The position numbers were made by a program, and so were the translations under genes. Of a DNA stretch of 64,000 nucleotides, positions 119 to 35,596 are shown in pieces (positions within the stretch are counted from its first letter, which is position 1; each line of letters opens with the position of its first letter). The stretch lies in assembly GCA_000381625.1 (NCBI GenBank), contig KB906767.1, positions 128,729 to 192,728 of the forward strand, in the 5' to 3' direction. The notes beneath the pieces are model-generated. The model was not told where the DNA came from, did no database searches, and worked only from the letters and a program-made list of their open reading frames with translations. Origin of the DNA: Bryobacterales bacterium KBS 96 (lineage in GTDB: Bacteria; Acidobacteriota; Terriglobia; Bryobacterales; Bryobacteraceae).

Positions 119-1264
119 CTAATTCGGCATCCGAGGCTGTTGTCGAGGATTTGTAGAATCGATTTTGTGATCGTCCGACAGTTTTCGGGTGGCTTTGTCC
201 TTACGCATTTGCCACTCCTCCATCCATTTCCGGTAGTGCTTGCGCACGACGTTGACGCTATCGCCCAGCAGATCCGCCACTACCTCAATTGGCTCGCCTT
301 TCGCGAGCAGCTCGCTCGCAAAGGTATGACGGAACCGATGCGGATAGGCCCCCTTTACGCCGGATCTCGCAAAGACTGACCAAAGCAACCGCTCGGCGCC
401 TTTGACGAGACTGCGCAGATTGCCTTGACCGGCGAAGTACATCTTTGATTCCCTCGCGGCCGCTTTCGGATGCGGGAGGTTTTCGAGCGCCTGTAGGACA
501 ATCGTCGGCACTTCGATCCTCAGCAGCACATTGTTTTTGATGGCGCGCTTGACGATGTAGTTGCCTTGGATGTGATCGCGCGACAGCGTAACTACATCGG
601 AGATTCTCATGCCGGTGAAGCGCAGCAGCAAGACCATTGCGCGGGCCCTGAGGCGCTCATAACTGCACTTACCTACGCCATCACAAGCGGAGATGATTTT
701 CGCCACCTCCTGCCGCGTGTAGGGCACGACCTCCTCGCCTTCCTCGATCTCCGGCAACTCGATTTCGAGCGCCGGATTATCCTCGCACCACTTGCGCGCC
801 AACGCGAATTTGAAGAGCGAGCGCAACTGCTCGACGGTCTTATACCAGCCGGGCGTGGGCTTACGATGCAATTGCACGAAAGGATCGAGGGTTTCGACTG
901 TTACGGACGGAAGAGATTTAAGGCCGCGCCCTTCGCAGTAAGTCTCAAACGTCTTCAGGTTGCGCCTGTATTTGCGCAGAGTCTCGGAGGAGCGATTCGC
1001 CTTGTGATCGATAAACGCCCGGATCGCCTCGCTGACAGACTTCTTGGCGGCTGGCGCTGGCTGCTTCTCGGCGTTAATCTCGCCCAATTTCTTCAGGGCT
1101 TTCGCAAGATCGCGCATCCCCAGCGAATAGTAAGTGACCTTGCCGCTCTCGCATCCATAGACCCAAAGGGGGCATGGCCGTTTGCCGCGGCATTTCAGGA
1201 AATTCGGTCCTTTCTCGCGGTCGGGGCATTTCTTACCGTGGCGGCGCTGGATAGTCAGATCCAT
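119..1264 (-). CDS. int: Phage tyrosine recombinase (integrase)
   Basis: A 381-aa site-specific recombinase that would integrate and excise the prophage at the flanking 95-bp repeats. A SAM-like core-binding domain lies around residues 75-160. The catalytic domain shows Arg220 in TGMRISD, the HRFRH box near 309-313 and the LGDS...HY segment with the nucleophile Tyr near 344. A Cys-rich stretch at residues 13-38 (CPDRE, CRGKRPC, GCES) suggests an N-terminal zinc-binding arm-type DNA-binding module. It is the last gene of the leftward early block, lies against attL and is followed by the small excisionase-like gene, the usual integration cassette. Confidence 0.95.
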   Translation of the reverse strand: MDLTIQRRHGKKCPDREKGPNFLKCRGKRPCPLWVYGCESGKVTYYSLGMRDLAKALKKLGEINAEKQPAPAAKKSVSEAIRAFIDHKANRSSETLRKYRRNLKTFETYCEGRGLKSLPSVTVETLDPFVQLHRKPTPGWYKTVEQLRSLFKFALARKWCEDNPALEIELPEIEEGEEVVPYTRQEVAKIISACDGVGKCSYERLRARAMVLLLRFTGMRISDVVTLSRDHIQGNYIVKRAIKNNVLLRIEVPTIVLQALENLPHPKAAARESKMYFAGQGNLRSLVKGAERLLWSVFARSGVKGAYPHRFRHTFASELLAKGEPIEVVADLLGDSVNVVRKHYRKWMEEWQMRKDKATRKLSDDHKIDSTNPRQQPRMPN

Positions 1265-3843: not shown

Positions 3844-4646
3844 GCGGAGAGTTCCTTACACGCCGGCAAATAGCACCGTGCGATATGCTGCGCGAGCGGA
3901 AACGGGATTTTGGCTATCTGGGCGGATGCGGCTTTACGTGCAGAATCATTTTTTCCAGCCCGGGCCGCTACCCAGGGAGGATTAAACGGACGTTCTATAC
4001 CGGCACGCTTTACAGAGGCGGACTGGAACGATCGTCCGGTCCCATCGAATCTGAACGCCGGAACCTTGTGGGCGTTAAACGCCTTCGGCATTAGGGCCGG
4101 TACATCTCCCCAGAGGTAGTAGCTGCCGTAATTCCACTGAGCGCGGCCCACCCATGGTTGAGCGCCGCGAACGTTCTCTACGATTAGCGGGATGTCCCTG
4201 TAAATCATCCCCTTCGAGTCGCAATATGCGCACTTTGGCGCGCTCATCATTCCATCGATGTACCCGCGCGAACATCGCAAGCATTCTCGACCGGTAGCCA
4301 TAATCGCTTCGCTCTGAATGCGAAAACACGCATCAAAAAGCGCAGTTAATTCGCGCTGCCGCGCCGGATCTTCCATGTACCATGCGGCCTTCTTCTTCAC
4401 GCGTTTCCATGGCATAGCCATGTAGCTGTATTCCTGGCACGGCGGACTCGCCACGATCAGCGCAGCATCGCGAAACTGCGAGCCGTGCAGGGTGAGCACG
4501 TCCTGAATCACGAGATGGCCCGGATAGCCACCGGTTCCGTAGTCGTGACGCTCGATGTCGAAACCGATGACTTCGTAGCCTTCAGCTAGAAAACCTTCGG
4601 CCCAGCCGCCTAATCCGCAAAACAAATCGATGGCGAGTGGCTTCAC
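3840..4646 (-). CDS. DNA (cytosine-5) methyltransferase
   Basis: 268 aa from a GTG at 4646 that overlaps the upstream stop. AdoMet-binding motif I is DLFCGLGGW (residues 7-15), the catalytic motif IV is SPPCQ with Cys70, and motif VI is VENVRG near 156-161. Between IV and VI is an insert with CLRCSRGYID...PKCAYC, a probable structural zinc site not found in most C5 enzymes. The target-recognition region is short. No cognate restriction enzyme lies beside it, so it probably protects phage DNA from host restriction. Confidence 0.88.
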   Translation of the reverse strand: MKPLAIDLFCGLGGWAEGFLAEGYEVIGFDIERHDYGTGGYPGHLVIQDVLTLHGSQFRDAALIVASPPCQEYSYMAMPWKRVKKKAAWYMEDPARQRELTALFDACFRIQSEAIMATGRECLRCSRGYIDGMMSAPKCAYCDSKGMIYRDIPLIVENVRGAQPWVGRAQWNYGSYYLWGDVPALMPKAFNAHKVPAFRFDGTGRSFQSASVKRAGIERPFNPPWVAARAGKNDSARKAASAQIAKIPFPLAQHIARCYLPACKELSA

Positions 4647-5479
4647 GCCGTCATCCCTTTCGCGCCTCTCTGGCACTCGCACGACACGTACAATTCGCCC
4701 TCCGGCAGCTCAACCCAGCCCGGTTTCTCGGTGACTCCCGGCCTCAAAACTCGCCCCGAATCTTGGCAGATCAGGCATGCCGGCTGGTGATATTCCCGCG
4801 ATTTCGGCGCGCCGTTTTTCAGAAATGCGGGTACGGTTTGCAGCCAAAGGCCCGGCGATTTCTGCACTCGGCGCTTGTACGTGGCTCGCACAGCGGCCGC
4901 AATCTCGGCATCGTCGGCAGTCGATTTCGCCCGCAAGGCCTCGAGCACGATGCGTTCGGCAATGATTTCATCGGCGTCCGGGAATGGCTCACGGACTGCG
5001 GCCAGCGTTTCGGGCCAGTTCCCCCCTTGACCCCCTTCCGGGGCAGATGCAGAAACAGAATCAGAAACAGACGCAGAAACAGATACAGAGGAGAAACCGT
5101 TGCGCGAAACGCTCACGTCCTGTTTCTCGAAACGCTCATCTGACTGTTTCGTGGAACGCTCTCGGAACCGTTTCACGCGTTCCGTTGACAGGTCGGTTTG
5201 GTATTGCCGCTTATCCCAACCATGGGGCACGAAACTGCTTTCGGACCGTTCCAAAAATTTCGCATCTTCGAGCTTTGAGAGCTGATCGATAACCTGCTGA
5301 TCATTCATCCGGAGCACCCATGCGATCTCGTCGACAGGCGGAAGCACCCCGCTATTGCCGCCAGCCAGGCAAAGGCAATTGATCCAAAATTTGAAAAGCG
5401 CCGGCTGCAACCGCTGGGCCTTCGGATCGTGCGGGACTTCCGTATAAAGACGAATCCAGGATCGTTTCACCAGGTTCAA
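4643..5479 (-). CDS. Phage replication initiator-like protein
   Basis: 278 aa. The N-terminal 95 residues (WIRLYTEVPHDPKAQRLQP...GVLPPVDEIAWVLRMNDQQVIDQLSKLEDAKFLE) form a winged helix-turn-helix like those of phage replisome organisers. The middle (residues 100-150) is a low-complexity Ser/Val linker whose DNA carries 12-bp and 24-bp tandem repeats. The C-terminus has CLICQDSGRV...YVSCECQRG, a probable zinc site. A repeat cluster inside the initiator gene mirrors phage lambda gene O, which contains its own origin. The VRR-NUC gene follows with a 4-bp overlap. Confidence 0.65.
   Translation of the reverse strand: MNLVKRSWIRLYTEVPHDPKAQRLQPALFKFWINCLCLAGGNSGVLPPVDEIAWVLRMNDQQVIDQLSKLEDAKFLERSESSFVPHGWDKRQYQTDLSTERVKRFRERSTKQSDERFEKQDVSVSRNGFSSVSVSASVSDSVSASAPEGGQGGNWPETLAAVREPFPDADEIIAERIVLEALRAKSTADDAEIAAAVRATYKRRVQKSPGLWLQTVPAFLKNGAPKSREYHQPACLICQDSGRVLRPGVTEKPGWVELPEGELYVSCECQRGAKGMTA
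5045..5190. repeat. Iteron-like repeats, candidate replication origin
   Basis: Two repeat families lie inside the initiator gene. Three 12-bp copies of GCAGAAACAGAN run from 5049 to 5084. Then near-palindromes of the form GTTTCnnGAAACGCTC recur every 24 bp, beginning at 5122, 5146 and 5170, with a weaker copy at 5099. Origins built of iterons within the initiator reading frame are known from lambdoid phages. That these bind the encoded protein is inference. Confidence 0.5.
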
Positions 5480-6074: not shown

Positions 6075-6364
6075 TGGCGGCCCTCCGCGTTGTCTATTAC
6101 CTTGCGAGCGTCCTCGTGCCACTGACGCATGCACAGATCCCCATCGCATCCGGAATCTTCAAGAGCTGCCTTTAATATCTTGAGAAGCTCCGGAGCGACG
6201 GCGATCAGGCGGGCGTTGGCCTTTTCCGTGTCCGTCCACTCTTCGGTGTACGGTCCAATTAGGCAAACGCCACCATCGTTGTCATCGAGGATCTGTAGAT
6301 CGGTTTCGTCCTTGAATTCGCCGCTAATAACCCACGGCCCCGGGGCGTGTTTCACTTCGCTCAT
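6071..6364 (-). CDS. Conserved phage protein, APGPW family
   Basis: 97 aa with the pattern HAPGPWVISGEF ... EKANARLIAVAPELLKILK, which recurs in hypothetical proteins of many tailed phages. It overlaps neighbouring genes by 4 bp on both sides. No role is established for the family. Confidence 0.75.
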   Translation of the reverse strand: MSEVKHAPGPWVISGEFKDETDLQILDDNDGGVCLIGPYTEEWTDTEKANARLIAVAPELLKILKAALEDSGCDGDLCMRQWHEDARKVIDNAEGRQ

Positions 6365-7029
6365 AGTGTCTTCATCTGCCTCGCGCTAGCCACTGCAGGC
6401 GTCCGGCTTGCCTTCATCGCGGCAACCGCCGTGGCGCTCGGATGCACGCACGGAATCACTTCGCCGTCTTCGTTCACGTGCGTCAAGCCGTTTTCGTCGC
6501 CGTACGGCATATCCGCGTCGCAGTGCGGGCACGCGAACAGCGGATCCTGCTTCTCGTCTTTCAGCACGGCCATCTCAACCCGCGTCCCCCCCTCGAATAG
6601 CTCGCCCTGGCGCGAGCGGACCGCCATCTCGAACGTGTCTTTCTTTACCGCGAAGAGAAACGCCAGCGCCTCCTGACTCTGCCCGGCCGGGATGTGCGCC
6701 CGCATCGTGATCTCAAATTGCGCGTCCTCGGTGCGGCTCAAGCGTAATTTGTGGATGATGTCGGGATAGTAAGTCGAGGACTGGCCCAAGTCCGTCGCCA
6801 TCGGCAGATGCAAGGTTACGTTTTGTAACTCGATGCTCAGCGGGATATTGTTACCGAGTCCCTCTCGAACGACCGTCCCGTTGAGGAGATAGTCAACGCC
6901 GAGTATCTCCGCGTGTTCGCGTGTCATGGGCGCAGAAAGCACCATCACACCCTTGATGTCATCACTCGTTGTCAGGTCGAGACCTTCGATGCGAGCGTCC
7001 TTAAATGCCAACAATCGTCGTAACTCCAC
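6361..7029 (-). CDS. Hypothetical phage protein downstream of the guide array
   Basis: 222 aa from a GTG at 7029, preceded by AAAGGA. An alpha/beta N-terminal region (ARIEGLDLTTSDDIKGVMVLSAP) is followed by a putative zinc knuckle (ACPHCDADM, with later CVHP). It is the first leftward gene after the 18-bp-periodic array, so array and gene are probably on one transcript. No family recognised. Confidence 0.6.
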   Translation of the reverse strand: MELRRLLAFKDARIEGLDLTTSDDIKGVMVLSAPMTREHAEILGVDYLLNGTVVREGLGNNIPLSIELQNVTLHLPMATDLGQSSTYYPDIIHKLRLSRTEDAQFEITMRAHIPAGQSQEALAFLFAVKKDTFEMAVRSRQGELFEGGTRVEMAVLKDEKQDPLFACPHCDADMPYGDENGLTHVNEDGEVIPCVHPSATAVAAMKASRTPAVASARQMKTL

Positions 7030-7065: not shown

Positions 7066-7291
7066 TGGGGCGCTCCAAGCCACTGGTTCTCTCCGGGCAA
7101 ATGGCTCGCTCTTGTAAGTTGGTTCCCTCACCTGGAGTGGCTCGCTCCTGTGTCCTGGTTCTTTCTAATGTCCTGGCTCGCTCTCATTCTTTGGGTCACT
7201 CTGAAACCTTGGCTCGCTCGAATCGAATGGTTCTCTCTGCTTTTATGGCTCGCTCTTCAAGCATGGTCCTCTCCCAACGCATGGCTAAACC
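7066..7291 (-). repeat. TIGR-type tandem interspaced guide array
   Basis: Twelve full units of exactly 18 bp start at 7066, 7084, 7102 and so on to 7264, plus a degenerate thirteenth at 7282. Written on the + strand, each is a 10-bp half-repeat plus 8 variable bases. Two half-repeats alternate: TGGCTCGCTC (identical at 7102, 7138, 7174, 7210 and 7246; degenerate at 7066) and TGGTTCTCTC (7084 and 7228 exact; others with 1-2 changes). The true period is therefore 36 bp with two spacers per period. Spacers after the first type: CAAGCCAC, TTGTAAGT, CTGTGTCC, TCATTCTT, GAATCGAA, TTCAAGCA; after the second: CGGGCAAA, ACCTGGAG, TAATGTCC, TGAAACCT, TGCTTTTA, CCAACGCA. A 36-nt dual-spacer unit beside a Nop/IS110-like gene is the described TIGR arrangement. 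Transcription leftward with that gene is inferred. Confidence 0.85.
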
Positions 7292-8091
7292 TTGTGGGCG
7301 TGGCCCAAAATCGCTATCGGATACGGCAGTGGCGGCTTCTCGCCGAAGTGATGCTCATACCAAAACTCGTGTAGATGACTCAAAAACAATTTCACGGCAT
7401 AGCGCTTCGCTCTCGCGTGGATATGGCCCGGCGGCAGCTTGCCCGATGAGTAACTCTTATAGGCTTCGGTTTCCTTTCCGATGCGCTTCTTAGTGATGGC
7501 CTCCGATGCTTGCGCGGCGTATTCGCCAGCCTCATTCTTCGCCTGCTCGTACCCCTTCCTCGCGAGATAGATCTTGCCGTAAACGTCATTCGGATTCCCC
7601 GAGACCTTCACGAACGATTCGCCGATTTTCCAGCAGAGTGTTTTGAGTGAGCCGTTGTGCGGGCGCTTCTGTCCTTTCCCCCAACTGAGAGTCGGATCTA
7701 AACCGGCAAAGCGCCAGATATGGCCCACGGTCGGGGCCTTCTCAATATCGATGTGCGCGAGCAGGCCCGCCGCGATTACTGGACCGATGCCCGTAATCGC
7801 CTTAAGCCACTTGCCTACTGGATGCTCGTCCGTCCAGCGATCAAGCGCACGCTTAACCTGCTGCTCTAGGACGTCATTTTGACTTCCGAGCCATACGAGA
7901 ACATCATGTGGCTCTCCGGACTCATTCAGTGCTCGCGTCTGATTGCCCGCCATGATGCGGTTGTGCTGCATCTGGTAATAGGCGTCTACGAGGAACCGTG
8001 CCTCGTCTTTCGAGAGTGAGCCGGAAGACTTCGCGATGTCCCGGCTGAGTCTCGCGACCGAATCAAGCGATATATTTCCCGCTGCTGCCAT
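7285..8091 (-). CDS. Tas-like protein (Nop/IS110 C-terminal fold), TasA type
   Basis: 268 aa; its TAG stop lies inside the first array unit. Residues 10-95 are helical and coiled-coil-like. Residues 96-135 (AITGIGPVIAAGLLAHI, then HIWRFAGLDP) carry the helix-hairpin-helix signature shared by the IS110/IS116/IS902 transposase C-terminal domain and the Nop domain of box C/D proteins. A basic helical region follows, then HARAKRYAVKLFLSHLHEFW at 225-244. The N-terminal DEDD/RuvC domain of IS110 enzymes is absent and there is no HNH motif. In TIGR-Tas systems such a protein binds 36-nt guide RNAs and targets DNA through two short spacers. Without a nuclease domain it could act as an RNA-guided DNA binder, for example a repressor. 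An automatic annotation would probably read transposase. Confidence 0.8.
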   Translation of the reverse strand: MAAAGNISLDSVARLSRDIAKSSGSLSKDEARFLVDAYYQMQHNRIMAGNQTRALNESGEPHDVLVWLGSQNDVLEQQVKRALDRWTDEHPVGKWLKAITGIGPVIAAGLLAHIDIEKAPTVGHIWRFAGLDPTLSWGKGQKRPHNGSLKTLCWKIGESFVKVSGNPNDVYGKIYLARKGYEQAKNEAGEYAAQASEAITKKRIGKETEAYKSYSSGKLPPGHIHARAKRYAVKLFLSHLHEFWYEHHFGEKPPLPYPIAILGHAHKV

Positions 8092-18228: not shown

Positions 18229-19851
18229 GTGCCGTTTTCGCAGCAACACGCCGACGCCGCATGCAACTTCTTCGAACTGATCCTGAAGCATACGGTCGAC
18301 GAATGGTACGGCAAGCCGTTCATTCTCGCGCCCTGGGAAGAAGAAGCAACTTCGCAGATCTTCGGCCAACTCACCGAGTCGGGAAGCCGGCTGATCGAGA
18401 CCGTTTACGAGGAAGTTCCGAAAAAATCGGGGAAGACGGAATGGGCCGCCGGCCTAGCGCTGCTCGTACTGATGTTCGCGAAGGATCGCGGCTGCCAGGT
18501 GTACGGCGCCGCAGCGGCCACACGGCAGGCGATGAACGTTTACCGCGCGGCGTGCGCAATGGTCTCACAAAGCAAGATCCTTTCGAAGCGTCTGAAGATC
18601 ATGCGGGGAACGAACCGCATCGCAAAGCGCGGCGATCCAGACTCCTTCTACGCGGCGATCGCGGCGGACGGAGACATGGGCGACGGCGTCAATCCGGCCT
18701 GCGTCATTGCGGACGAAGTTCACCGGTGGAAGACGCGCAAGCAGCTCGAGAACTGGGACGTGCTCACTAATGGCGGCATCACGCGGCGGCAGACGTTGAC
18801 AATCGCGATCACAACCGCCGGCGTGCAGAACGAATCGCCGATCGCCTGGCGCTTGCATGAGAAGACGCGCAAGATCCAGGAAGGCATCATTTCGGATCCG
18901 AAATTCTACGGGCGGATTTACGGCGCCGCGGTCGAAGACGATCCGCACGATGAGAAGACCTGGATCAAGGCGAACCCGAGCCTGAAAGAGAACGGCGGCT
19001 TCCTCGATATCGAAAAGATCCGCGAGAAGTACACGTCGCTATCGGCCGAGGGCGATCTGACCTCGTTCAAGCGCTACTTCCTCAATATGTGGGATCAGAA
19101 GGAAGGCCGCTCGATCGACATGGCGAAGTGGGATGCCTGCCGGAGCGAATGGAGCGCCGCGGGTTTGCTGCCAAAACCTCCCGAAGATGCTGTGCGGCCG
19201 CTGCCTCACGACGTCATCGCGCATTTCATCGAGCGGCAATGCTGGGTGGGCGTCGATCTCTCGATGAGCACGGATCTTTCGGCGATCTCCTTTGTCTTCC
19301 CGCGCGACGACGGCTTCGACGTGTTGCCATTCTTCTGGACGCCGGCGGCCGGCCTGCGCGCGAGAGAACTGAAAGACGGCATGCCGTACCGTCAGTGGGC
19401 GGAGCAGGGCTTTCTGGAATTATGCGAGGGCGATGTGATCGACTATCGCGACATGCGCGCACGCCTGGAGTGGGGAGCGCGACTTTTCGACCTCGAAGAG
19501 ATTTGTTTTGATCCCTGGAACTCGCGTGAGATGTCCGTATCGATGGTCGAAGACGGTTACCGGTGCGTCGAGATCCGGCAAGGCTTCGCGACGCTCAGCG
19601 AGCCATCGAAAAAGATTCTGTCGCTGGTCGCATCCGGGCAACTCGGCCATGGCGGCCATCCCGTTTTGCGCTGGAACGCGAGCTGCCTCACCGCGAAAGA
19701 AGCGAACGACAATCTCATGTTTGTGAAGCCGGAGAGGGCGCGCAATTCTTCGCGGATTGACGGCATTTCGGCCACGACGAACGCTCTGGCGCGCGCGCTG
19801 ATTGCGGAGAGCAATACCGTGTCCTACTCCGGACTCAGGAGCGTCGGTTAG
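18229..19851 (+). CDS. Terminase large subunit
   Basis: 540 aa from a GTG at 18229. The ATPase domain has VPKKSGKTEW (residues 63-72; Lys69-Thr70) as Walker A and VIADEVHRW as Walker B. The RNase H-like nuclease domain begins at WVGVDLSMSTDLSAIS with the first catalytic Asp, and later has ICFDPWN. Length and motifs fit the TerL that pumps and cuts DNA in cos/HK97-type phages. It overlaps the portal start. Confidence 0.95.
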   Translation: MPFSQQHADAACNFFELILKHTVDEWYGKPFILAPWEEEATSQIFGQLTESGSRLIETVYEEVPKKSGKTEWAAGLALLVLMFAKDRGCQVYGAAAATRQAMNVYRAACAMVSQSKILSKRLKIMRGTNRIAKRGDPDSFYAAIAADGDMGDGVNPACVIADEVHRWKTRKQLENWDVLTNGGITRRQTLTIAITTAGVQNESPIAWRLHEKTRKIQEGIISDPKFYGRIYGAAVEDDPHDEKTWIKANPSLKENGGFLDIEKIREKYTSLSAEGDLTSFKRYFLNMWDQKEGRSIDMAKWDACRSEWSAAGLLPKPPEDAVRPLPHDVIAHFIERQCWVGVDLSMSTDLSAISFVFPRDDGFDVLPFFWTPAAGLRARELKDGMPYRQWAEQGFLELCEGDVIDYRDMRARLEWGARLFDLEEICFDPWNSREMSVSMVEDGYRCVEIRQGFATLSEPSKKILSLVASGQLGHGGHPVLRWNASCLTAKEANDNLMFVKPERARNSSRIDGISATTNALARALIAESNTVSYSGLRSVG

Positions 19852-21209
19852 TGCTTTTCCCCGAACTCCGATCGGCCGTGAAGGGCTTCTTCAGCGGCTT
19901 CGACTCCGAGCCTGTTTCGCTTGGACGCGAACTGAAGGCAGCCGGCGGCGTTTCGTTCGACGCCGTTAACGCCGGCTGGTATGCGCGCAACGGTTACCCC
20001 GGCATCTACTCGATCATGTCGGGTGGTTTTCCGGCCTGGTCGGGAGAGCCAGTCTCGACGGAGACGGCGCTCAATCACAGCGTCGTATGGGCCTGTAACC
20101 GGATTATCAGCGAATCCGTGGGCTTCATCCCAGCGGTGTTCATGCAGGAAAAGAACGGCGCGAAGCGGGAAGCTACCGAACATCCGATGTACTCGGCGCT
20201 CAAAAATGCGCCCAACGATGAGACGACCGCGCAGAGCTTCACAGAGACAGAAACCGGCCACTGCGTCTTGCAGGGCAACGCGTTCGCTCATATCATCAGG
20301 CGATCCGGCACCGGCACCGCGATCGAGCTTCGCGGCATCCAGCCCCAACTCGTATTTCCCGACCGCGAAAAAAGCGAGCAGAAGCGGCTCATCTACGTCA
20401 TCAAGCAGATCGGGCAGGCTGATAAGACCTACACGGTCCAGCCCGGCAAGCCGCACGACATTCTGCATCTCCGCGGCCTCGGCTGGGACGGCATTCGCGG
20501 CTACTCGGTCATTACGATGGCTCGCCAGTCTATCGGGACCGCGATCGCGATGGAGCGCAATGTCGCGCGGTTCTATGCAAACGGCGGGCGGATTCCCTAT
20601 CTGCTCGAAATGGCGCAGAAGTTTAAAACTGACGCAGATTTCGACAAATTCCGCGCCGATTGGGAGAAAACATATTCGGAGCCACACCGGGCGCCGATCC
20701 TGGAAAACGGCACGACGTATAAGCAGATCGGCCTTAATGCGCACGATGCGCAGCTCGTTGAATCGCGCCAGTACACGATTCCGGAGATCTGCCGTTGGTT
20801 CTCGGTTTCTCCGCACCTGGTGGGCGATCTCAGCCGCGCAACATTCAGCAATATCGAGCAACTTGCTCTGGAGTTTGTGCAGCGGACGCTGATGGCATGG
20901 CTGACCCGTTGGGAGCAAGAGCTTTGGCGATGCGTGCTGACGCCAGAGGAGAAAGCCGCCGGCTATTTCTTCAAGCACAACGTGAACGCGCTCTTGAGGG
21001 GTGATTTCCAATCTCGCATGACGGGCTACGCAACAATGCTCCAGAATGGCGTGTCGAGCATCAACGAAGTCCGCAATCTTGAGGATCAAAACCCGATCGA
21101 AAGCGGCGACGATCACTATATTCAACTCAACCTGCGCGATGTGACCCAGCCCGCGCAGACGGCCCGCGTGAAGGTGGGCGGCAATCAGCAGGAGGCAGCG
21201 GCGGCATGA
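19851..21209 (+). CDS. Portal protein (HK97 type)
   Basis: 452 aa from a GTG. It has the HK97-family portal pattern: VVWACNRIISESVGFIPAVF near the N-terminus, a central LHLRGLGWDGIRGYSVI, the stem region YTIPEICRWFSVSPHLVGDL, and NIEQLALEFVQRTLMAWL. Twelve copies would form the DNA channel at the special capsid vertex. Followed by the protease gene with a 4-bp overlap. Confidence 0.95.
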   Translation: MLFPELRSAVKGFFSGFDSEPVSLGRELKAAGGVSFDAVNAGWYARNGYPGIYSIMSGGFPAWSGEPVSTETALNHSVVWACNRIISESVGFIPAVFMQEKNGAKREATEHPMYSALKNAPNDETTAQSFTETETGHCVLQGNAFAHIIRRSGTGTAIELRGIQPQLVFPDREKSEQKRLIYVIKQIGQADKTYTVQPGKPHDILHLRGLGWDGIRGYSVITMARQSIGTAIAMERNVARFYANGGRIPYLLEMAQKFKTDADFDKFRADWEKTYSEPHRAPILENGTTYKQIGLNAHDAQLVESRQYTIPEICRWFSVSPHLVGDLSRATFSNIEQLALEFVQRTLMAWLTRWEQELWRCVLTPEEKAAGYFFKHNVNALLRGDFQSRMTGYATMLQNGVSSINEVRNLEDQNPIESGDDHYIQLNLRDVTQPAQTARVKVGGNQQEAAAA

Positions 21210-22114
21210 AGACGAAACGAATGAGACTCGAAATCAAAGAGATTTCGGAGGCTGGCAGCTTCGAGGGCCTGCTCTCGCCCTACGGCAACGTCGATCTCGG
21301 GCGCGATGTCGTCGAGCCTGGCGCATTCACGAAGACGCTAAAAGAACGCGGGAATGTAATTCCGATGCTCTGGCAGCATGACGCGGAAGAGCCGATTGGC
21401 AGCCTCACGCTCGAAGATCGGCCGGAAGGACTCTTCGCAAAGGGACAACTCCTGATGGAGCTTCCGACCGCGCAGAAAGCGTATTCGCTGCTCAAGGCCC
21501 GCATCGTGAAAGGACTCTCGATAGGCTATGAGGCGGTCAAGGATGCCGTCGTATCGGGAGTCCGCCATCTCAAGGAAATTAAGCTCTACGAGGGTTCCGT
21601 CGTCACGTTCCCAATGAACGAAATGGCGCTCATCACGAGCGTAAAGGGCGCTCGCGGCATCAAGGGTGATTTCAATGAGGAGCTGACGGAGAACCAACTG
21701 CAGGATGCCGGCTACCAGATGCGTTGCGCCTTGTCGCAGGCTCTCTGCTCGGTGATCTGGTCGGAGGCGACGCGCGAAGAAATGATGAGCGCGAGCGAAA
21801 CGATCATCCAGCAATTTTCCGACGCTTACATGGCGTATCTTCCGCAATACCTCGACATGCTTGCCGAATTGTACGGCATGGACACGAAGGAATGGAAGGC
21901 GCAGCGTGAGGCAAAAGCAGGCCGGCGGCATAGCGCCGCGGACCGCGCAGCCGTTGAAGGCGTCATCAACACCCTGTCCGCACTTATCACCGAGGAAGCC
22001 GGCGAAGACGCCACTCCCGAAGGGAAAGCCGCGGGCGATAAGTCTGAGCCGGATTTCCACTCAGCAGCCAGCCAGCTTGAGGCTTTTATCAAGTCGCAAT
22101 TTCAGGCGGCGTAA
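21206..22114 (+). CDS. Prohead protease (HK97 family)
   Basis: 302 aa. The S78-type protease core covers about residues 1-160: FEGLLSPYGNVDLGRDVVEP, the catalytic His in MLWQHDAEEPIG and the catalytic Ser in IVKGLSIGYE. The C-terminal 140 residues are helical and may act as scaffold. It would trim the delta domain of the capsid protein encoded next. Confidence 0.93.
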   Translation: MKTKRMRLEIKEISEAGSFEGLLSPYGNVDLGRDVVEPGAFTKTLKERGNVIPMLWQHDAEEPIGSLTLEDRPEGLFAKGQLLMELPTAQKAYSLLKARIVKGLSIGYEAVKDAVVSGVRHLKEIKLYEGSVVTFPMNEMALITSVKGARGIKGDFNEELTENQLQDAGYQMRCALSQALCSVIWSEATREEMMSASETIIQQFSDAYMAYLPQYLDMLAELYGMDTKEWKAQREAKAGRRHSAADRAAVEGVINTLSALITEEAGEDATPEGKAAGDKSEPDFHSAASQLEAFIKSQFQAA

Positions 22115-22147
22115 CGAGCCTGGAAATTCAACCCAAAAGGTAAACCA

Positions 22148-23332
22148 ATGGACGAACTATTGAAGCAGCTTGCGGCTTTGCAAGCGCAGATCAAAGCGTC
22201 GCAGGAAAAGGCTGCCGAGGAAACGAAGAAATACGGCACCATGCTCGAAGAGACAAAAAATTCTCTTACGGGCCTGCAAACGCAAGTCGACGCGATCGAC
22301 AAGAAGATGGCCGAGCGCCACTCGGGAGACGGCGATCAGCCGAGTCTCATTGAGACGCTGAAGGCGAACGACTCGATCGCCCGAATGGTCAAAGATGGAA
22401 GCGGCCGAGCCTCCATCCAACTGAAGGGCGCGGAAGTGGCCCGGCTTTTCGAGCGCAAAACGACGATTACGAGCGCCGCTGTCGGAACGGCCACAACCGG
22501 CGTCCTCCAGATCGATCGCATTCCGGGGATCACGCAGGAAGCGCGGCAGGCCCTCACGGTACGCGACCTATTAGCGGCGCGGCCCACGGCCATGCAGGTA
22601 GTTGACTTCGTGAAAGTCAACGCAGCGCCAAAGATCGCCTCCCCGCAGGTGGAAGCAAGCGACAAGGCAGAAAACGCCGTCACGTTCACCAGCGCATCGG
22701 AGAAGGTCCGGACCATTGCAACCTGGATCCCAGCCACAAAGCAGATCCTGGCGGATTTCGGCGAGCTGGCGGGCTATCTCAACAGCGCTCTGCCGTATTA
22801 CGTGAACCTCGAAGAAGAGCTGCAGCTTCTCTCTGGCGACAGCACTGGCGAGAATCTGAATGGTCTGATCACCCAGTCGAGTGACTTCTCGGGCTCTCTG
22901 CTCTCGCCGGCGGCCGGCTGGACCAAGCTCGATGTGATCGGGCGCGCAATTCAGCAGATCACTGTAGCGAAGGAAATCGCCCCGACTTTCGTGATCCTGA
23001 ACCCCAATGACTACTGGGACATCCGCCTGACCAAAGATGGCTTCGGCCGCTATATCCTCGGTGATCCGCAGATCCCCGTTACGCGTCCGCAAATCTTCGG
23101 TCTGGATCTTGTGCCGACAACCTCTATCGCGAGCGGTTCATTCCTGGTTGGCTCCGGCAATGCCGTGGCTGCCGAGATCCGCGATCGCATGGAGATGACG
23201 GTTGAAATCTCGACTGAGCACAGCGACTATTTCGTCAAGAACATGGTCGCGGTTCGGGCCGAGAAGCGCCTCGCCTTGATCGTCAAACGTGCTGCCAGCT
23301 TCGTCAACGGCACGTTCACGACGTCGCCCTAG
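22148..23332 (+). CDS. Major capsid protein (HK97 fold)
   Basis: 394 aa. Residues 1-60 form the coiled-coil delta/scaffold domain (LKQLAALQAQIKASQEKAAE). The HK97-fold shell begins around residue 100, with the AVGTATTGVLQIDRIPGI and RTIATWIPATKQILADF segments (N-arm and E-loop) and FVILNPNDYWDIRLTKDGFG. It has a good ribosome site (AAAGGT). Protease-capsid order and length fit the family. Confidence 0.95.
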   Translation: MDELLKQLAALQAQIKASQEKAAEETKKYGTMLEETKNSLTGLQTQVDAIDKKMAERHSGDGDQPSLIETLKANDSIARMVKDGSGRASIQLKGAEVARLFERKTTITSAAVGTATTGVLQIDRIPGITQEARQALTVRDLLAARPTAMQVVDFVKVNAAPKIASPQVEASDKAENAVTFTSASEKVRTIATWIPATKQILADFGELAGYLNSALPYYVNLEEELQLLSGDSTGENLNGLITQSSDFSGSLLSPAAGWTKLDVIGRAIQQITVAKEIAPTFVILNPNDYWDIRLTKDGFGRYILGDPQIPVTRPQIFGLDLVPTTSIASGSFLVGSGNAVAAEIRDRMEMTVEISTEHSDYFVKNMVAVRAEKRLALIVKRAASFVNGTFTTSP

Positions 23333-23349
23333 TCTGGTTGGCCATTTAT

Positions 23350-23382
23350 GAGGGGTGGACATCCGTTCGCCCCTCCCCTTTT
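23350..23382 (+). terminator. Terminator-like hairpin after capsid gene
   Basis: GAGGGG (23350-23355) pairs with CCCCTC (23370-23375) across a 14-nt loop, followed by CCCTTTTCTTCT. Six G-C-rich pairs and a broken T-run suggest partial termination, which would keep capsid expression above that of the following genes. Confidence 0.45.
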
Positions 23383-23390
23383 CTTCTCTC

Positions 23391-23732
23391 ATGAAACTCA
23401 TCGCTAATCGCCAACTGCGCGGCGTATACGGCTTGGCAGCGCCCGGTCAGACGTTCGACTGTCCCGACGACGTCGCCGGGGAATTGCTCAGAAAACAGGT
23501 GGCGCGGATCGCCGCGTCGCCACGCGTCGCCTACGAAACCAAGGTAATCGTTCCCGAGGCTCCCGAGGTAAGCGCGCGGCAACCGTTTCGCGACGTGCCT
23601 GTGCTTGACGCGGAATCGCCGACAGTGGCTCCCCAAAGCCGTCGAGTGTTTTCAACAACAAACCTACCGCCGCTCCGAGATGCTGATCCTCGCGGACGGG
23701 GAGGACGTAAGGGATTTGGTTCCAAGCCATGA
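23391..23732 (+). CDS. Small head-associated protein
   Basis: 113 aa from the ATG at 23391. The first 50 residues (MKLIANRQLRGVYGLAAPGQ, then FDCPDDVAGELLRKQVARI) resemble short proteins often encoded just after capsid genes. The C-terminal 45 residues are low-complexity and overlap the next gene in another frame for 128 bp, so the natural end may differ. Confidence 0.55.
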   Translation: MKLIANRQLRGVYGLAAPGQTFDCPDDVAGELLRKQVARIAASPRVAYETKVIVPEAPEVSARQPFRDVPVLDAESPTVAPQSRRVFSTTNLPPLRDADPRGRGGRKGFGSKP

Positions 23733-24186
23733 ACGAATCCGGCTCATTCATCTTGCGGAATCACGCCCCGTCGGAGAGAAGCGCAACTTCGGTTGCGAGC
23801 GCGCCGCCGGCGAAATCATCTGCCATTGGGACGATGACGACTGGTCCGGACCCGAACGACTGGCGCGCCAAATCGAAACGCTTTGCGGAAACGGTAATCA
23901 AGCCGTGGCTGGATTCCACAGCATGCGGTTCACTGACGGATCGCGATGGTGGAAATATAACGGAACCCGAAATTACGCCCTCGGAACTTCGCTTTGTTAC
24001 CGGCGGGAATGGTGGCAAGTGAATCGATTCCCGGCGCTGCAGGTGGGCGAGGATAACGCATTTGTGGAGAATGCCGCGCGGCGGCGCCAGCTCGTCACGG
24101 AAGACGCCGGCGAGCTGATGTATGCCACGATTCATCCGGGCAATACGAGTCCGAGAAACAAGGGAACTAACTGGAAGGCGCTATGA
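23605..24186 (+). CDS. GT2-type glycosyltransferase, N-terminus unclear
   Basis: 193 aa from a TTG at 23605. It matches family 2 glycosyltransferases of the type TCLCLTRNRRQWLPKAVECF...ILADGEDVRDLVP, with the DDD metal-binding motif in CHWDDDDWSGPERL and GEDNAFV. The conserved TCLCL strand is encoded upstream of the TTG in the same frame, which opens at a TAA at 23569 without any ATG or GTG. The enzyme therefore starts at a rare codon, is made by frameshifting from the gene before it, or is N-terminally damaged. It would transfer a sugar to a phage or host surface target. Confidence 0.75.
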   Translation: MTRNRRQWLPKAVECFQQQTYRRSEMLILADGEDVRDLVPSHERIRLIHLAESRPVGEKRNFGCERAAGEIICHWDDDDWSGPERLARQIETLCGNGNQAVAGFHSMRFTDGSRWWKYNGTRNYALGTSLCYRREWWQVNRFPALQVGEDNAFVENAARRRQLVTEDAGELMYATIHPGNTSPRNKGTNWKAL

Positions 24187-24458
24187 GCCACAGACCAACA
24201 GCATCGGTCGGAAACCCAGTCGTCAAACAGCTCCTGGATGACGGCATAATCCCGCAAATGTGCATCGGATTCACTCTCGAATGCCGAGTGGATGACGCGG
24301 TAACGATGACCTCCGAGGTCTATGTCACGCAGGAGCAGTTCCAAAAGATAGCGGATGCGCTTTCCTCGAATCCAGAGGAAGCGAAGCGAATCGCGCGAAG
24401 GATCATCTTCAAGTCAATGGACGACTCCGGCCAAGCGCCGATATCGGTCGACCTATGA
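24183..24458 (+). CDS. Hypothetical cargo protein
   Basis: 91 aa, coupled by 4-bp overlaps to the glycosyltransferase genes on both sides. It has a beta-strand region (GIIPQMCIGFTLECRVDDAV) and a C-terminal helix. Its place inside the sugar-modifying cluster suggests an accessory role; family not recognised. Confidence 0.6.
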   Translation: MSHRPTASVGNPVVKQLLDDGIIPQMCIGFTLECRVDDAVTMTSEVYVTQEQFQKIADALSSNPEEAKRIARRIIFKSMDDSGQAPISVDL

Positions 24459-25144
24459 GCGTTTGGTTTGCCATCCCTTCCGCGCGGCCAGCTTCCGAGG
24501 CCGAACCCGTCATCGCCAAATGGCGCGAGATGGGCTATAAGATCGCTCTTTTGCGCCAGGGCGAGCCAATCGAGGCAGATATTCACATTCCGACGCCGAT
24601 CTATTTTGGCTGGGCCCAATCGATTAACATGCTGGCGGGGCTGGTGCTTCAGCAGGATCCCGAGGCCGGCTGGATCGTTTCCGGAGGAGACGACACACTG
24701 CCCGATCTCGCAAATTCGGCTGATATTATCAGCGCCCAATGCAAAGAGCATTTCGGCGGCACGTTCGGCGTGATGCAGCCGACCGGTGACCGCTGGGCGG
24801 ATGGGTCGATTGATCGCATTTGTGGCTCCCCCTGGCTCGGCCGCGAATTCCGCACGCGGATGTATCAGGGCAGGGGGCCGATGTTCGACGGCTACGCTCA
24901 CATGTTCGGCGACGAGGAATTGCAGCAAGTCGCAGTCAAACTCGGCGTCCTCTGGCAGCGCCGAGATCTGATCCATCTGCACAAGCACTATTTCCGCACG
25001 CAGAACGACGGCGTGAATCACGGCGCGGCGGTCCCACCGCACATGCAGGAGTGGAACAGCCGCAAGCATTGGATTGAGTCGCAGGCGCTCTTCAATCAGC
25101 GCCGAGTCTTTGGGTTCCCGGGCCACGAGCCCTTATCCGCATGA
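24455..25144 (+). CDS. Glycosyltransferase-like cargo protein
   Basis: 229 aa. A Rossmann-like start (VWFAIPSARPASEAEPVIAK) is followed by GWIVSGGDDTLPDLAN, where GDD occupies the place of a GT-A DxD motif. Later FDGYAHMFGDEELQQVAVKL resembles the acceptor-side GDE segment of family 2 enzymes. Recognition is by pattern only. It is coupled to an FkbM methyltransferase by a 4-bp overlap. Confidence 0.6.
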   Translation: MSVWFAIPSARPASEAEPVIAKWREMGYKIALLRQGEPIEADIHIPTPIYFGWAQSINMLAGLVLQQDPEAGWIVSGGDDTLPDLANSADIISAQCKEHFGGTFGVMQPTGDRWADGSIDRICGSPWLGREFRTRMYQGRGPMFDGYAHMFGDEELQQVAVKLGVLWQRRDLIHLHKHYFRTQNDGVNHGAAVPPHMQEWNSRKHWIESQALFNQRRVFGFPGHEPLSA

Positions 25145-25770
25145 AAACCGAACGCGAATACGCAACCGAGATCATCGCGAACGCCCCGGGCCCGCGCGTT
25201 ACCGTGCTCGAGCTCGGGGCGCATCACGGCAATGACACCGTTTTGCTCTATGACGCGGCCACGAAGCCGATCACGCTTGTCGCGGTCGAAGCCGACCCGC
25301 GAAATGTGCCAATCCTGGAGCGACGCGTCGGGCGGCGGCAGGTGAACATCCTGTATGCCGCCGTGTGGAACCGGGCCAGTAAAGTGATCCTGCATTTGGC
25401 GGAAGGGCGCGGCGACGGATCCAGCAGCGTTCGAAAGCCGCTCAAGCATCTGGAGCATTTTCCCGATATTTCCTTCACCGGCGCGGTCGAAGTCGCCGCA
25501 ATGACGCTCGACGGGATCGCGGAGCGCTACGGAATCGAGCAGGTCGATCTGATCTGGTGCGACATTCAGGGTGCCGAACGAAACATGATCGCGGGCGGAG
25601 CGAAGACTCTGGCGCGAACGCGATGGCTGCTGACTGAATGCGACCGAATCGAGATGTACGAGGGCCAGGCGACACGCGACGAGCTGCTGGAGCTACTGCC
25701 TGACTGGGAACTGATCGCAGAGTGGCCCGAGAACGCGAATTTGCTGCTACGGAATCGGGGGCTCGCGTGA
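25141..25770 (+). CDS. FkbM-family methyltransferase
   Basis: 209 aa. The AdoMet-binding region VTVLELGAHHGNDTVLLYDA and VAVEADPRNVPILERR, the SSSVRKP segment, and VDLIWCDIQGAERNMIAGG are the FkbM signature. FkbM enzymes O-methylate sugars or glycans. With three glycosyltransferase-like neighbours it would cap or decorate a glycan on virions or the host surface. Confidence 0.9.
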   Translation: MKTEREYATEIIANAPGPRVTVLELGAHHGNDTVLLYDAATKPITLVAVEADPRNVPILERRVGRRQVNILYAAVWNRASKVILHLAEGRGDGSSSVRKPLKHLEHFPDISFTGAVEVAAMTLDGIAERYGIEQVDLIWCDIQGAERNMIAGGAKTLARTRWLLTECDRIEMYEGQATRDELLELLPDWELIAEWPENANLLLRNRGLA

Positions 25771-26657
25771 AGCTGATAGCTTTAATGCCGGTCCGTAACG
25801 AGGACTGGGTTCTCGGCCTCTCGGCACGCGTGGCGCTCCAGTGGTGCGATGAGCTGGTGATGCTGTGCCACGCCAGCTCAGATAAGAGCGCGTCGATCAT
25901 GCGCGAGATAAGCGATGAGCATCCCGGCCGAGTTCACCTTGCGTTGAATGAAGACTCCGAATGGCGCGAAATGCAGCACCGTGGCTATCTTCTGAGGATC
26001 GCTCGGGCCGCCCAGGCTACACACATTGCCATCGTCGACGCGGATGAGATTCTGACCGGCAATCTCGTAGTGCGCATGCGCGGATTGGTCGAATCAATGC
26101 CGCGCGGATCCATTTTGCAACTCCCCGGTTACAACCTGCGCGGCGATCTCCGCCGCTATCACGCGAACGGCATTTGGGGGAATCGCTGGTTTTCGGTCGT
26201 CTTTGCCGACGATCCGCGCCTCGGATGGTGCGGAGACCGCTTCCATCATCGCGAGCCCATGGGACCGGCGCTCAACGAATGGCGACCCGTCCCGCAGGGC
26301 TACGGTGGCGTGATGCATCTGTGGGGGCTGAACGAGCGGCGGCTGATTGCGAAGCACGCGGCCTACAAGATGGTCGAAACGCTGCGCTGGCCGAATAAGC
26401 CACGCGCGGAAATCGATCGCATGTATTCGCAGGCTTTCAACCCGGCTGCCAATCCGCGATTCGACCAAGTTTGGCGATACGCGACGGCGCCGGAATCGTG
26501 GTGGGAGCCATACCAAGACTTACTTGGACGCTTGAAATCGGACGCGGAGCCCTGGCAAGAGCAAATGTGCCGCGAACTTTACGCGCAGCACGGGGTGGCG
26601 CGGTTTAAGGGGCTGGATCTGTTCGGAGTTTGCGAGGCGAAAGGGGCGGTCGCATGA
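25767..26657 (+). CDS. Family 2 glycosyltransferase
   Basis: 296 aa from a GTG at 25767 overlapping the preceding stop. It has a GT-A start VKLIALMPVRNEDWVLGLSA, the DxD-type metal site in IAIVDADEILTGN, and WFSVVFADDPRLGWCGDRFH downstream. The last 100 residues are Trp/Arg-rich and helical. Similar single-domain enzymes occur in surface-glycan clusters. Its place in the head gene run makes the virion a plausible substrate. Confidence 0.85.
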   Translation: MKLIALMPVRNEDWVLGLSARVALQWCDELVMLCHASSDKSASIMREISDEHPGRVHLALNEDSEWREMQHRGYLLRIARAAQATHIAIVDADEILTGNLVVRMRGLVESMPRGSILQLPGYNLRGDLRRYHANGIWGNRWFSVVFADDPRLGWCGDRFHHREPMGPALNEWRPVPQGYGGVMHLWGLNERRLIAKHAAYKMVETLRWPNKPRAEIDRMYSQAFNPAANPRFDQVWRYATAPESWWEPYQDLLGRLKSDAEPWQEQMCRELYAQHGVARFKGLDLFGVCEAKGAVA

Positions 26658-26887
26658 AGGCTCAATCTCTCACCAGGCGCGGCTTCATCGGGGCTATCGC
26701 CGCCGCCGCGCTCCTCAAAAAGAAGTCTTTCGCATGCGGCGGGGTGGTTCATTTAAGGGATCCGTATATCGTCGGCAGTAATGCCGATATTTGCTTTGTG
26801 GAATCTCGAAAACTCACGAACGAAGAAATCGCGCAGATATTTAACGTGCCGGTGCACATGGTTACCTGGCCGGAGGATTGGCGGTGA
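26654..26887 (+). CDS. Small protein with Tat-like signal and portal-like segment
   Basis: 77 aa beginning MKAQSLTRRGFIGAIAAAAL, which has a twin-arginine motif and hydrophobic core of a Tat signal, followed by Lys-rich residues and FACGG. The C-terminal part ICFVESRKLTNEEIAQIFNV PVHM resembles the portal segment in which the clip helix ends in IxxxFxVPxHL. It may be a short duplicated portal fragment with a new N-terminus or a small exported protein. It is coupled on both sides by 4-bp overlaps. Confidence 0.5.
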   Translation: MKAQSLTRRGFIGAIAAAALLKKKSFACGGVVHLRDPYIVGSNADICFVESRKLTNEEIAQIFNVPVHMVTWPEDWR

Positions 26888-27588
26888 GTAGCTGGTTTCC
26901 TTACGGCGGGGTTGGGCCTTATGGCACCTACGGCAATCTCGGCCTTTATGGCGCGCTTGTCGTTTATGGATCGCTCAACCCCACCGAGTCTTCGCCCGCG
27001 CAATCCTTCACTGAGCCGTTGACGCTCAGCGAAATGAAGAGCTACCTCAAAGTGCCGGAGCGTTCGCCGGCGGATAGCGACGAAGACAACGAAATCATGT
27101 CGCTCATCATTGGCGCTCGCGTGCAGGCCGAGATCCTCCAGGGCCGCGACCTGGTCGTCAAGCAATGGGATCTACATCATGACTACTGGCCGTCATATCG
27201 CGTGGAGCTGCGCGGGCCGCTGAACAGTGTGGATCTCGTCCAATACAAAGATTCGAATGGCGCCATCACGACGATGACGGAAAATACGGATTACATCGTC
27301 GACGGCTTCAAGGGGCCCGGCGTTCTCGCGCCGCCATACAACAAAACGTGGCCAACGTTCACTCCGTGGCCATCGTCCTCGATCCTGGTTCGCTTCACGT
27401 CCGGTTACGCCGCTGATTCCGCGTTCTGGTCCGGCGACGGGCATTTGATCAAAAACGGCATGAAATTGCTGATTTCGGCCTGGTACAACGGCCGGATTCC
27501 GTTTGAGGTTGGCAGAGCGGTGGCATTCGAATATCCGTTCTCCGTGACAAGCTGCTTATCGCAAGGCTCGCTCGTGAGGGCGCGTTGA
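26884..27588 (+). CDS. Head-tail connector protein (gp6-like)
   Basis: 234 aa from a GTG at 26884. Residues 1-35 are Gly/Tyr-rich (PYGGVGPYGTYGNLGLYG). From residue 45, LTLSEMKSYLKVPERSPADS and IMSLIIGARVQAEILQGRDL are the helical connector domain of the HK97 gp6 / phage_gp6 family, here followed by a beta insertion (VELRGPLNSVDLVQYKDSNG) typical of the longer members. It would form the ring beneath the portal. Confidence 0.85.
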   Translation: MSSWFPYGGVGPYGTYGNLGLYGALVVYGSLNPTESSPAQSFTEPLTLSEMKSYLKVPERSPADSDEDNEIMSLIIGARVQAEILQGRDLVVKQWDLHHDYWPSYRVELRGPLNSVDLVQYKDSNGAITTMTENTDYIVDGFKGPGVLAPPYNKTWPTFTPWPSSSILVRFTSGYAADSAFWSGDGHLIKNGMKLLISAWYNGRIPFEVGRAVAFEYPFSVTSCLSQGSLVRAR

Positions 27589-27926
27589 CGCCTTGGCCGT
27601 CCATTGACCCGGGCCGGATGGTCCACCGGGTTACGTTGCTTCAGCAGACGGCTGGAACGGATGCGTCGGGCGCCATTGTCACGTGGACGCCGTTCGTCAC
27701 GACGTGGGCGGCGATCGATCCGGTGCGCGGCACGGATGTGATCAGGGCCGGGCAGGACACGACGCAGCTTTATTTGACGATTACGATTCGATGGCAGACC
27801 GGGATTCTGCCGAGCATGCGGGTGCAGGGCAATAACGGAACGTACATCATCCAGGCGATCGAGAATCCGGGCGAACGCAACATCTTGCTAGTCCTGAATT
27901 GCGTCGCCCTCAGCGCGAATCAATGA
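27585..27926 (+). CDS. Head closure / head-tail joining protein
   Basis: 113 aa from a TTG at 27585 overlapping the connector stop. Beta-barrel pattern DPGRMVHRVTLLQQTAGTDA, WTPFVTTWAAIDPVRGTDV and THTIRWQTGI-like strands are those of phage head-tail joining (SPP1 gp16/HK97 stopper) proteins. Confidence 0.85.
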   Translation: MTPWPSIDPGRMVHRVTLLQQTAGTDASGAIVTWTPFVTTWAAIDPVRGTDVIRAGQDTTQLYLTITIRWQTGILPSMRVQGNNGTYIIQAIENPGERNILLVLNCVALSANQ

Positions 27927-28315
27927 TCGAGTCCGGACTTACTTTGCTCGTGAACGCTGACAGCGCGGTCAAAGCGATCGCGCCCATCGGCGGCTTTCTC
28001 GCGGAGCTGCCGAAGGATCAGGCGCTGCCGTCCTGGTCGTATCTGTGGGCCTCGGACACGCCGCGCTACGCGTTCGAGGGGCTCCGGCCAGTCAATCAGC
28101 GTCGGCTGCAAATCGACTGCTACGGTGGCGCGGCGGAAGTGATTAACCTCGCTCAAGCGATCGACAACGTACTGAGCGGCTTCAAGGGCACGCTCGCGGA
28201 TGTGGACGCGACGATGGTCGCGGGCTGCTTCCGCTCGAATGTAATTGACTTTTTTGATGACGCGCCGCGCACTTACCGGCGGACTCTCGAATACGTGATC
28301 TGGTTTTACCAGTAG
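27923..28315 (+). CDS. Tail completion / terminator protein (DUF3168-like)
   Basis: 130 aa from the ATG at 27923. It has LTLLVNADSAVKAIAPIGGF, QIDCYGGAAEVINLAQAIDN and a final RRTLEYVIWFYQ strand, in keeping with DUF3168 tail terminators that cap the tail tube at the head interface. Coupled by ATGA to the stopper gene. Confidence 0.8.
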   Translation: MIESGLTLLVNADSAVKAIAPIGGFLAELPKDQALPSWSYLWASDTPRYAFEGLRPVNQRRLQIDCYGGAAEVINLAQAIDNVLSGFKGTLADVDATMVAGCFRSNVIDFFDDAPRTYRRTLEYVIWFYQ

Positions 28316-28360
28316 ATCCGGCCCTCCGGCCTAAATTCCAAACACAACTAGGAGCAAATC

Positions 28361-28816
28361 ATGCCTTACGACGGCACACAGGCCGGCATCGGCCTTGGCA
28401 CTGTATTATCCATCGGCGACACCGCGAGCCCCATCGGCTACACGGCAGTCGGCGAACTTTCCGGCCTCAATGAATCCGGTCGTCAAGCCGGAACGGACGA
28501 TGCGACGAACTTCGAGAGCGGCGCTCGCGAGTTCCTCCCCACTCTGATTGATTCAGGCAATTGGGCGTTCACTGGTAACCGCATCGGCAGCGACGCCGGC
28601 CAAGTGGAAATGGAGACGGCGTTTGCCGCTCTCGAAATACGCCCATTTAAGGTCGAACTGCCAAAAACCTCGGCGCAAACCGTCTCTGGCGACGTCGCCA
28701 CCTTCAAGGCGTTGATAGAGCAGTGGAACGTGACCCCGATTGAAGTTGACAAGATCGTCAAGATCCAGGGGCAACTGAAAGTCTCTGGAGTTATTACCTG
28801 GACGCCGGGGAGCTAA
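28361..28816 (+). CDS. Major tail tube protein
   Basis: 151 aa with its own ribosome site (AGGAGC). The beta-rich sequence (VLSIGDTASPIGYTAVGELS, SGNWAFTGNRIG, GQLKVSGVITWTPGS) and place after the tail terminator and before the chaperone pair fit the siphophage tail tube subunit (phage_TTP-like), which stacks as hexamers. Confidence 0.85.
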   Translation: MPYDGTQAGIGLGTVLSIGDTASPIGYTAVGELSGLNESGRQAGTDDATNFESGAREFLPTLIDSGNWAFTGNRIGSDAGQVEMETAFAALEIRPFKVELPKTSAQTVSGDVATFKALIEQWNVTPIEVDKIVKIQGQLKVSGVITWTPGS

Positions 28817-28819
28817 TAA

Positions 28820-29730: not shown

Positions 29731-29763
29731 ACAAACATGATATGGCCCTTGAAGGCGTAATCG

Positions 29764-34158: not shown

Positions 34159-34161
34159 ATC

Positions 34162-35593: not shown

Positions 35594-35596
35594 TCC

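Follow-up and report, generated by a model that had tools for sequence, protein, structure and literature searches.

A TIGR-TasA system in an acidobacterial prophage and a candidate target in a satellite-like element of the same genome

To what sequences is an RNA-guided protein directed when it carries no nuclease? TIGR-Tas systems (tandem interspaced guide RNA arrays with Tas proteins) were described in 2025, and their discoverers called both the genuine targets of the spacers and the role of nuclease-free TasA unknown, in large part since the majority of loci come from fragments of metagenomes (PMC12045711). The question is raised again by a 64-kb stretch of the genome of Bryobacterales bacterium KBS 96 (contig KB906767.1, positions 128,729 to 192,728; hereafter the window), in which a prophage gene for a 268-aa protein adjoins an array of short alternating repeats. 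On the combined basis of fold, sequence and array we regard the assignment of this locus to TIGR-Tas, subtype TasA, as practically certain. Systems of this kind are already known; what is new is a candidate target in the same genome. Since system and candidate target are found in one two-contig genome, the question is directly testable.

The array (7066..7291) lies on the minus strand and, read from 7291 to 7066, comprises thirteen 10-nt repeats at an exact spacing of 18 nt, separated by twelve non-repeating 8-nt spacers. Two repeat types, GAGCGAGCCA (edge) and GAGAGAACCA-like (loop), alternate along its length, and the true period is 36 nt: self-identity at lag 36 reaches 0.60, compared to no more than 0.41 elsewhere in the window, and is 0.58 at lag 18, with lags of 17, 19, 35 and 37 near background. 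The TAG stop of the 268-aa gene falls within the first repeat, and both termini are truncated edge repeats (GGTTTAGCCA first, GAGCGCCCCA last). The original prediction, made from the letters of the window, had described 18-bp units with two alternating 10-bp repeats, a 36-bp true period and 8-nt spacers, beginning at that stop codon; the description is accurate. Edge and loop repeats share the box C motif CCA and a pair between positions 3 and 8; an extra pair between positions 4 and 7 is confined to edges. The repeats open with GA, unlike the UG of TasR arrays. Two alternating repeats of 8–12 nt, with spacers of 8–12 nt, beside a tas gene define the dual-repeat type of TIGR-Tas, and this is the arrangement found here. 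CRISPR-Cas was considered and is ruled out by the alternating 10-nt repeats, as opposed to a single 25–36-nt repeat accompanied by cas genes. A PADLOC scan of the protein and six neighbours gave no match except one methyltransferase.

The gene itself (tasA, 7285..8091, minus strand) encodes a Nop-fold protein without a nuclease domain, as judged from phmmer, an AlphaFold2 model, Foldseek/VIA, Pfam and PHROGs. Pfam detects only Transposase_20 (residues 96–134) and no HNH, RuvC or DEDD domain; the PHROGs match is phrog_4285, labelled transposase (E 1e-54). A phmmer search of PDB sequences returned TasR (9mty, E 2e-13) and TasH (21kl, E 3e-10), with IS621 far weaker, and a tblastn search extends to Salicola phage CGphi29, from which the characterised SpTasH comes (PMC12045711). 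The AlphaFold2 model, built from 62 aligned sequences, has a mean predicted local distance difference test score (pLDDT) of 87.8. Its closest folds are TasH (Z 18.4 over 218 residues) and TasR (Z 17.0), followed by IS621 and ISCro4 (Z 13); Foldseek comparisons with TasH and TasR gave E values of 2e-7 to 6e-6 and Z of 16–18. A Nop/IS110-type fold and membership of the Tas family had been predicted, and both are borne out, with TasH and TasR standing ahead of the IS110-type recombinases. The model aligns to residues 65–301 of TasH and 112–302 of TasR, leaving out the N-terminal nuclease domains of both; the protein is therefore TasA, in agreement with the earlier view that it lacks RuvC/DEDD and HNH domains. 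The alignment to IS621 begins only at residue 125, and the DEDD domain is absent.

Relatives of TasA were collected from IMG/VR (80 loci) and from a genome collection (12). Most of these approximately 90 relatives are on viral contigs and several are in acidobacterial metagenome-assembled genomes; TasA is present in two of 399 genomes of the host's class, the host included, and a search of plasmids yielded none. Nearly all have an array of 36-nt period beside the gene and on its strand, with the same layout as here, and dozens of phages encode intact proteins about 60% identical to TasA beside the same repeats. An unrelated fold, or loss of the period in related prophages, had been named in advance as grounds for rejection; the fold proves to be a related one, and related phages retain the period. 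One TasA of the same family adjoins a very long TIGR array of 94 repeats (L009:2326-4009).

The relatives also allow the guide unit to be defined. Edge variants (GAGCGAGCCA, GAACGAGTCA, GATCGAGACA and GAGTGAACCA) show compensatory changes at positions 3–8 and 4–7, and loop repeats keep 3–8, without 4–7. For two successive edges, position 8 of the first pairs with position 3 of the second in 91%, compared to 71% within the same repeat and 72–76% at other offsets; position 7 is paired with position 4 of the next edge in 95%, compared to 74% within the same repeat. Where repeats depart from the consensus of their array, next-edge pairing holds in 76–80% and within-repeat pairing in 12–25%. The pattern of next-repeat pairing is absent from loop repeats. 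Edges were assigned by within-repeat (cis) pairing, and the bias therefore worked against the next-edge result. Given that pairing with the next edge exceeds pairing in cis, selection acts on an RNA that starts halfway through an edge and stops halfway through the following one. Both of these trans pairs are kept in all six guide units of the array in the window, despite its truncated terminal repeats. As judged from natural variation, the functional unit is a 36-nt RNA with two 8-nt spacers and a predicted cut mid-edge; an RNA running from mid-edge to mid-edge is the experimentally known guide, the tigRNA (PMC12045711). The trans covariation thereby supports, indirectly, processing into Tas-bound 36-nt tigRNAs. 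Edge-to-edge covariation allows guide units and their orientation to be defined from sequence alone in any array of the family, and both are needed before targets are sought elsewhere.

Near-identical phages among the relatives (L028, L033, L035, L037, L039, L041 and L048) carry homologous guides 1–5 nt apart, and one of the two spacers is often identical. Counted across all groups, 91 guide pairs from the same group differ at four positions or fewer, compared to 0.6 expected; codon-like 3-nt spacing of the differences was not seen in near-duplicate guides. Arrays appear to diversify through duplication and point change.

Six tigRNAs are predicted from the array, all on the minus strand. The first (7251..7286) reads AGCCA-TGCGTTGG-GAGAGGACCA-TGCTTGAA-GAGCG; the others carry the spacers TAAAAGCA / TTCGATTC (guide 2, 7215..7250), AGGTTTCA / AAGAATGA (guide 3, 7179..7214), GGACATTA / GGACACAG (guide 4, 7143..7178), CTCCAGGT / ACTTACAA (guide 5, 7107..7142) and TTTGCCCG / GTGGCTTG (guide 6, 7071..7106). 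Published cleavage leaves 8-nt 3' overhangs and falls 5' of the nucleotide paired to the fifth base past box C (PMC12045711); the target strand derived from this reads as spacer A, then 0–2 bp, then spacer B in reverse complement. For guide 1 the predicted target is TGCGTTGGTTCAAGCA. The two spacers of guide 4 start alike, which makes its predicted target nearly palindromic; this guide has 3 matches in IMG/VR, compared to 43–94 for the four other guides scanned.

Host targets were sought as exact patterns in the 6.69-Mb genome (two contigs). Guide 2 has one exact, gapless dual-spacer match, TAAAAGCAGAATCGAA, at G000:C1:6329962-6329977 (L193:13962-13977, minus strand). Under a third-order Markov model the number of gapless matches expected by chance is 0.004 for guide 2 alone and 0.02 for all six guides; for all six with gaps of 0–2 it is 0.06. 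The site covers nt 27–42 of an 86-aa HTH_17 gene (helix-turn-helix, HTH; excisionase/regulator, phrog_66). Candidates for what a TIGR-Tas system naturally targets, and for the end it serves, are rare, and this match is one of them; that guide 2 marks a genuine target is likely, though short of proven.

The gene containing the site belongs to a 10.2-kb element (L193:5953-16131), separate from the prophage and flanked by attachment (att) repeats of a tRNA-Glu 3' end. The element encodes an integrase, a divergent HTH repressor, two HTH_17 proteins (one from the gene with the guide-2 site), an O-like replication protein, a small terminase, a major head protein, a head protease and an F5/8C-domain protein. 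The TIGR-bearing phage has a major head (capsid) protein 68% identical to the element's, and a replication-initiation gene of its own (4643..5479, minus strand; phrog_3926, E 1e-12) whose product is 58% identical to the element's replication protein over 123 aa. Integrase and regulators at a tRNA att site, together with capsid, protease and small terminase, are as in capsid-forming phage-inducible chromosomal islands (cf-PICIs). Portal, large terminase and HNH genes were not found among the element reading frames scanned (compare the cf-PICI definition, PMC10690885). Since no portal or large terminase was found, we call the element satellite-like, or a decayed prophage, and not a cf-PICI. A search of IMG/VR for relatives of its HTH or replication gene found none, and among the class genomes the sole strong second match to the element's genes is the TIGR-bearing phage's own gene. 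Beside the element (L193:3228-5979; G000:C1 ~6319228-6321979) is a second copy of the tRNA-Glu att repeat with a 90%-identical integrase end, as if a tandemly inserted element had later been lost or decayed.

The five remaining guides fit the whole element better than shuffled spacers (P 0.010) and fit the phage's own early region no better than shuffled (P 0.77). Two have near matches in the element's replication gene, which adjoins the HTH gene: guide 5 at 14 of 16 positions (L193:13052-13067), both mismatches falling at the outermost positions of spacer A, and guide 6 at 13 of 16 (L193:13237-13252). Single mismatches at the outer ends are tolerated, and double edge mutations impaired activity (PMC12045711). 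Summed over guides, the best mismatches on the element come to 18 in the predicted arrangement, 26–27 for reversed-order and same-strand arrangements, and 22 in the wrong phase, a control with only five pairs. The target of guide 1 corresponds to bases 2–17 of ATG-CGT-TGG-TTC-AAG-CA, the MRWFKH start of some phage replication-initiation proteins, and two of its IMG/VR matches (L298 and L332) lie exactly at such a start; the gene in L298 is a relative of the element's replication protein. The element's own replication gene begins VRWLKH, with four mismatches to guide 1. At L332:1441-1736 the MRWFKH gene for replication initiation comes directly after an HTH excisionase-like gene; gene order there matches that of the host element.

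How might such a system act? From the biochemistry of the family (PMC12045711), a TasA dimer would be expected to hold one tigRNA, whose spacers A and B pair with opposite DNA strands across about 16 bp. The complex would bind and bend DNA; because TasA has no nuclease, it would not cut. The target match suggests that the system is directed against competing mobile elements of its own host cell. With guide 2 the complex would be placed in the excisionase-like HTH gene, and with guides 5 and 6 in the adjoining replication gene; transcription or replication of the element's module would then be blocked while the phage's early genes are on. The proposal of repression, and not cleavage, derives from the absence of a nuclease together with the biochemistry of TasR. 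We consider it probable that the full explanation is of this form: a TIGR-TasA system, a real guide-2 target, and RNA-guided, non-cutting repression of a rival's excision and replication module. More tentatively, and at slightly less than an even chance, we suggest that a temperate phage uses this nuclease-free system to silence genes for excision and replication in a satellite-like element of the same cell, and leaves alone the related replication gene of its own; the silenced genes would be a first natural target of a TasA system. Of the two roles guessed at from the locus, inter-element competition gains evidence from guide 2, and silencing of the phage's own genes gains none.

It may be, however, that TIGR-TasA is real and the guide-2 match coincidental, the true targets being other phages or plasmids absent from this genome; we hold this to be rather unlikely, if well worth considering. 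A single exact match can arise at an expectation of 0.02–0.06, and a number of results weigh against a target in the element. Only one guide of six has an exact match: guides 1, 3, 4, 5 and 6 have none in the host genome. On the 1-kb HTH and replication module the five remaining guides reach P <0.0005, but the choice of that module was post hoc. Guide 1 occurs in the 399 class genomes at chance (4 matches, compared to 1 for the control), and its matches at MRWFKH start codons are therefore suggestive only; the gapless one among the four class-genome matches lies in a gene that reads as valyl-tRNA synthetase. IMG/VR scans with guides 1, 2, 4, 5 and 6 gave scattered matches that mostly fit chance and sequence redundancy, and those of guides 1, 2, 5 and 6 look like background, bar the two start-codon cases. 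Nor is there target enrichment across the family: DNA flanking tas in the approximately 90 relatives shows no excess over swapped or shuffled spacers, and guides of unrelated arrays share no target sites, bar two near-identical pairs. Other hosts provide no second example: the guides of Halomonas sp. NO4 have no match at three mismatches or fewer in its nine HTH_17 loci, and an exact target for a Propionivibrio guide pair was absent from its own genome. Finally, TasR gave no block of phage infection in E. coli (PMC12045711). Against coincidence, the match lies in a capsid-bearing integrated element and not in host genes, and adjoins the very replication gene matched by guides 5 and 6; the remaining guides fit that element beyond shuffled spacers, and of the arrangements scored, the one expected in order and phase from the published mechanism does best.

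Two further explanations concern the phage itself. TasA could regulate the phage's own genes, or bend the DNA of the attachment site and so assist the integrase. Such roles were suggested for TasA generally by its discoverers, who found that TasR bends target DNA by ~180 degrees (PMC12045711), and tasA sits in the early region, with the integrase at that region's end. Yet the guides have no match to the window at one mismatch or fewer in any tested order, matches at 2–3 mismatches are at or near shuffled levels, no match at three mismatches or fewer is listed for the phage's own replication gene, and the early region, as noted, is fitted no better than by shuffled guides. We judge these roles improbable. 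Still less credence, indeed almost none, is due to the idea of a decayed IS110-type transposase with incidental repeats. The Transposase_20 and PHROG labels favor it, but it is already contradicted by the missing DEDD domain, by TasH and TasR as best folds, by the recurrence of intact proteins with the same repeats, and by edge pairing kept through compensatory change.

Among known systems the locus most resembles the dual-repeat TIGR-TasA type represented by FpTasA (Faure et al. 2025, PMC12045711), with which it shares a solo Nop-fold protein, adjacent alternating 10-nt repeats, a prophage location, box C CCA in edge and loop, the edge-only extra pair and truncated terminal edges. Unlike that type (PMC12045711), it has 8-nt and not 9-nt spacers, only six guides and a candidate target in the same cell. 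A Rho-independent terminator typically, though not universally, follows arrays of this type; a simple scan for the consensus found none here. The closest solved fold is SpTasH of Salicola phage CGphi29 (PDB 21kl, 9w04 and others), which is similar in having 16 nt of spacer per guide; its N-terminal HNH nuclease (residues ~1–64) is absent here. The IS110-family bridge-RNA recombinases IS621 and ISCro4 share the RNA-binding fold and the pairing of two guide segments with opposite strands, but they have a DEDD domain and a single bridge RNA, whereas here there are many guides in an array. For the proposed role the nearest analogy is phage ICP1, whose CRISPR-Cas or origin-directed nuclease, Odn, acts sequence-specifically against the PLE satellite, its replication module included (PMC8263062). 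Those systems were shown experimentally to cut DNA (PMC8263062), and CRISPR has dedicated spacer-acquisition machinery; here there is no nuclease, only binding is proposed, and acquisition genes are absent. If the proposed account is true, this TIGR-TasA system would be an RNA-guided anti-satellite repressor that parallels ICP1 against PLE (PMC8263062), by binding and not by cutting.

The surroundings had been read as a likely prophage; they are those of a tailed phage, with integrase, exonuclease VIII, terminase, portal, major head and tail fibre J genes. The integrase lies at 119..1264 (minus strand; phrog_1, E 6e-38). Past the array and on its strand is a 222-aa gene (6361..7029, minus strand) with no PHROG match. 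Prophage annotation places the structural module, with large terminase, portal, major head protein and tail fibre J, at 18229..38845 on the plus strand. A 42-bp direct tandem repeat in two perfect copies occurs in an early-region reading frame (11849-11933), and an O-acetyltransferase gene (39906-40970; phrog_3333), likely a lysogenic conversion gene, is located at the prophage end.
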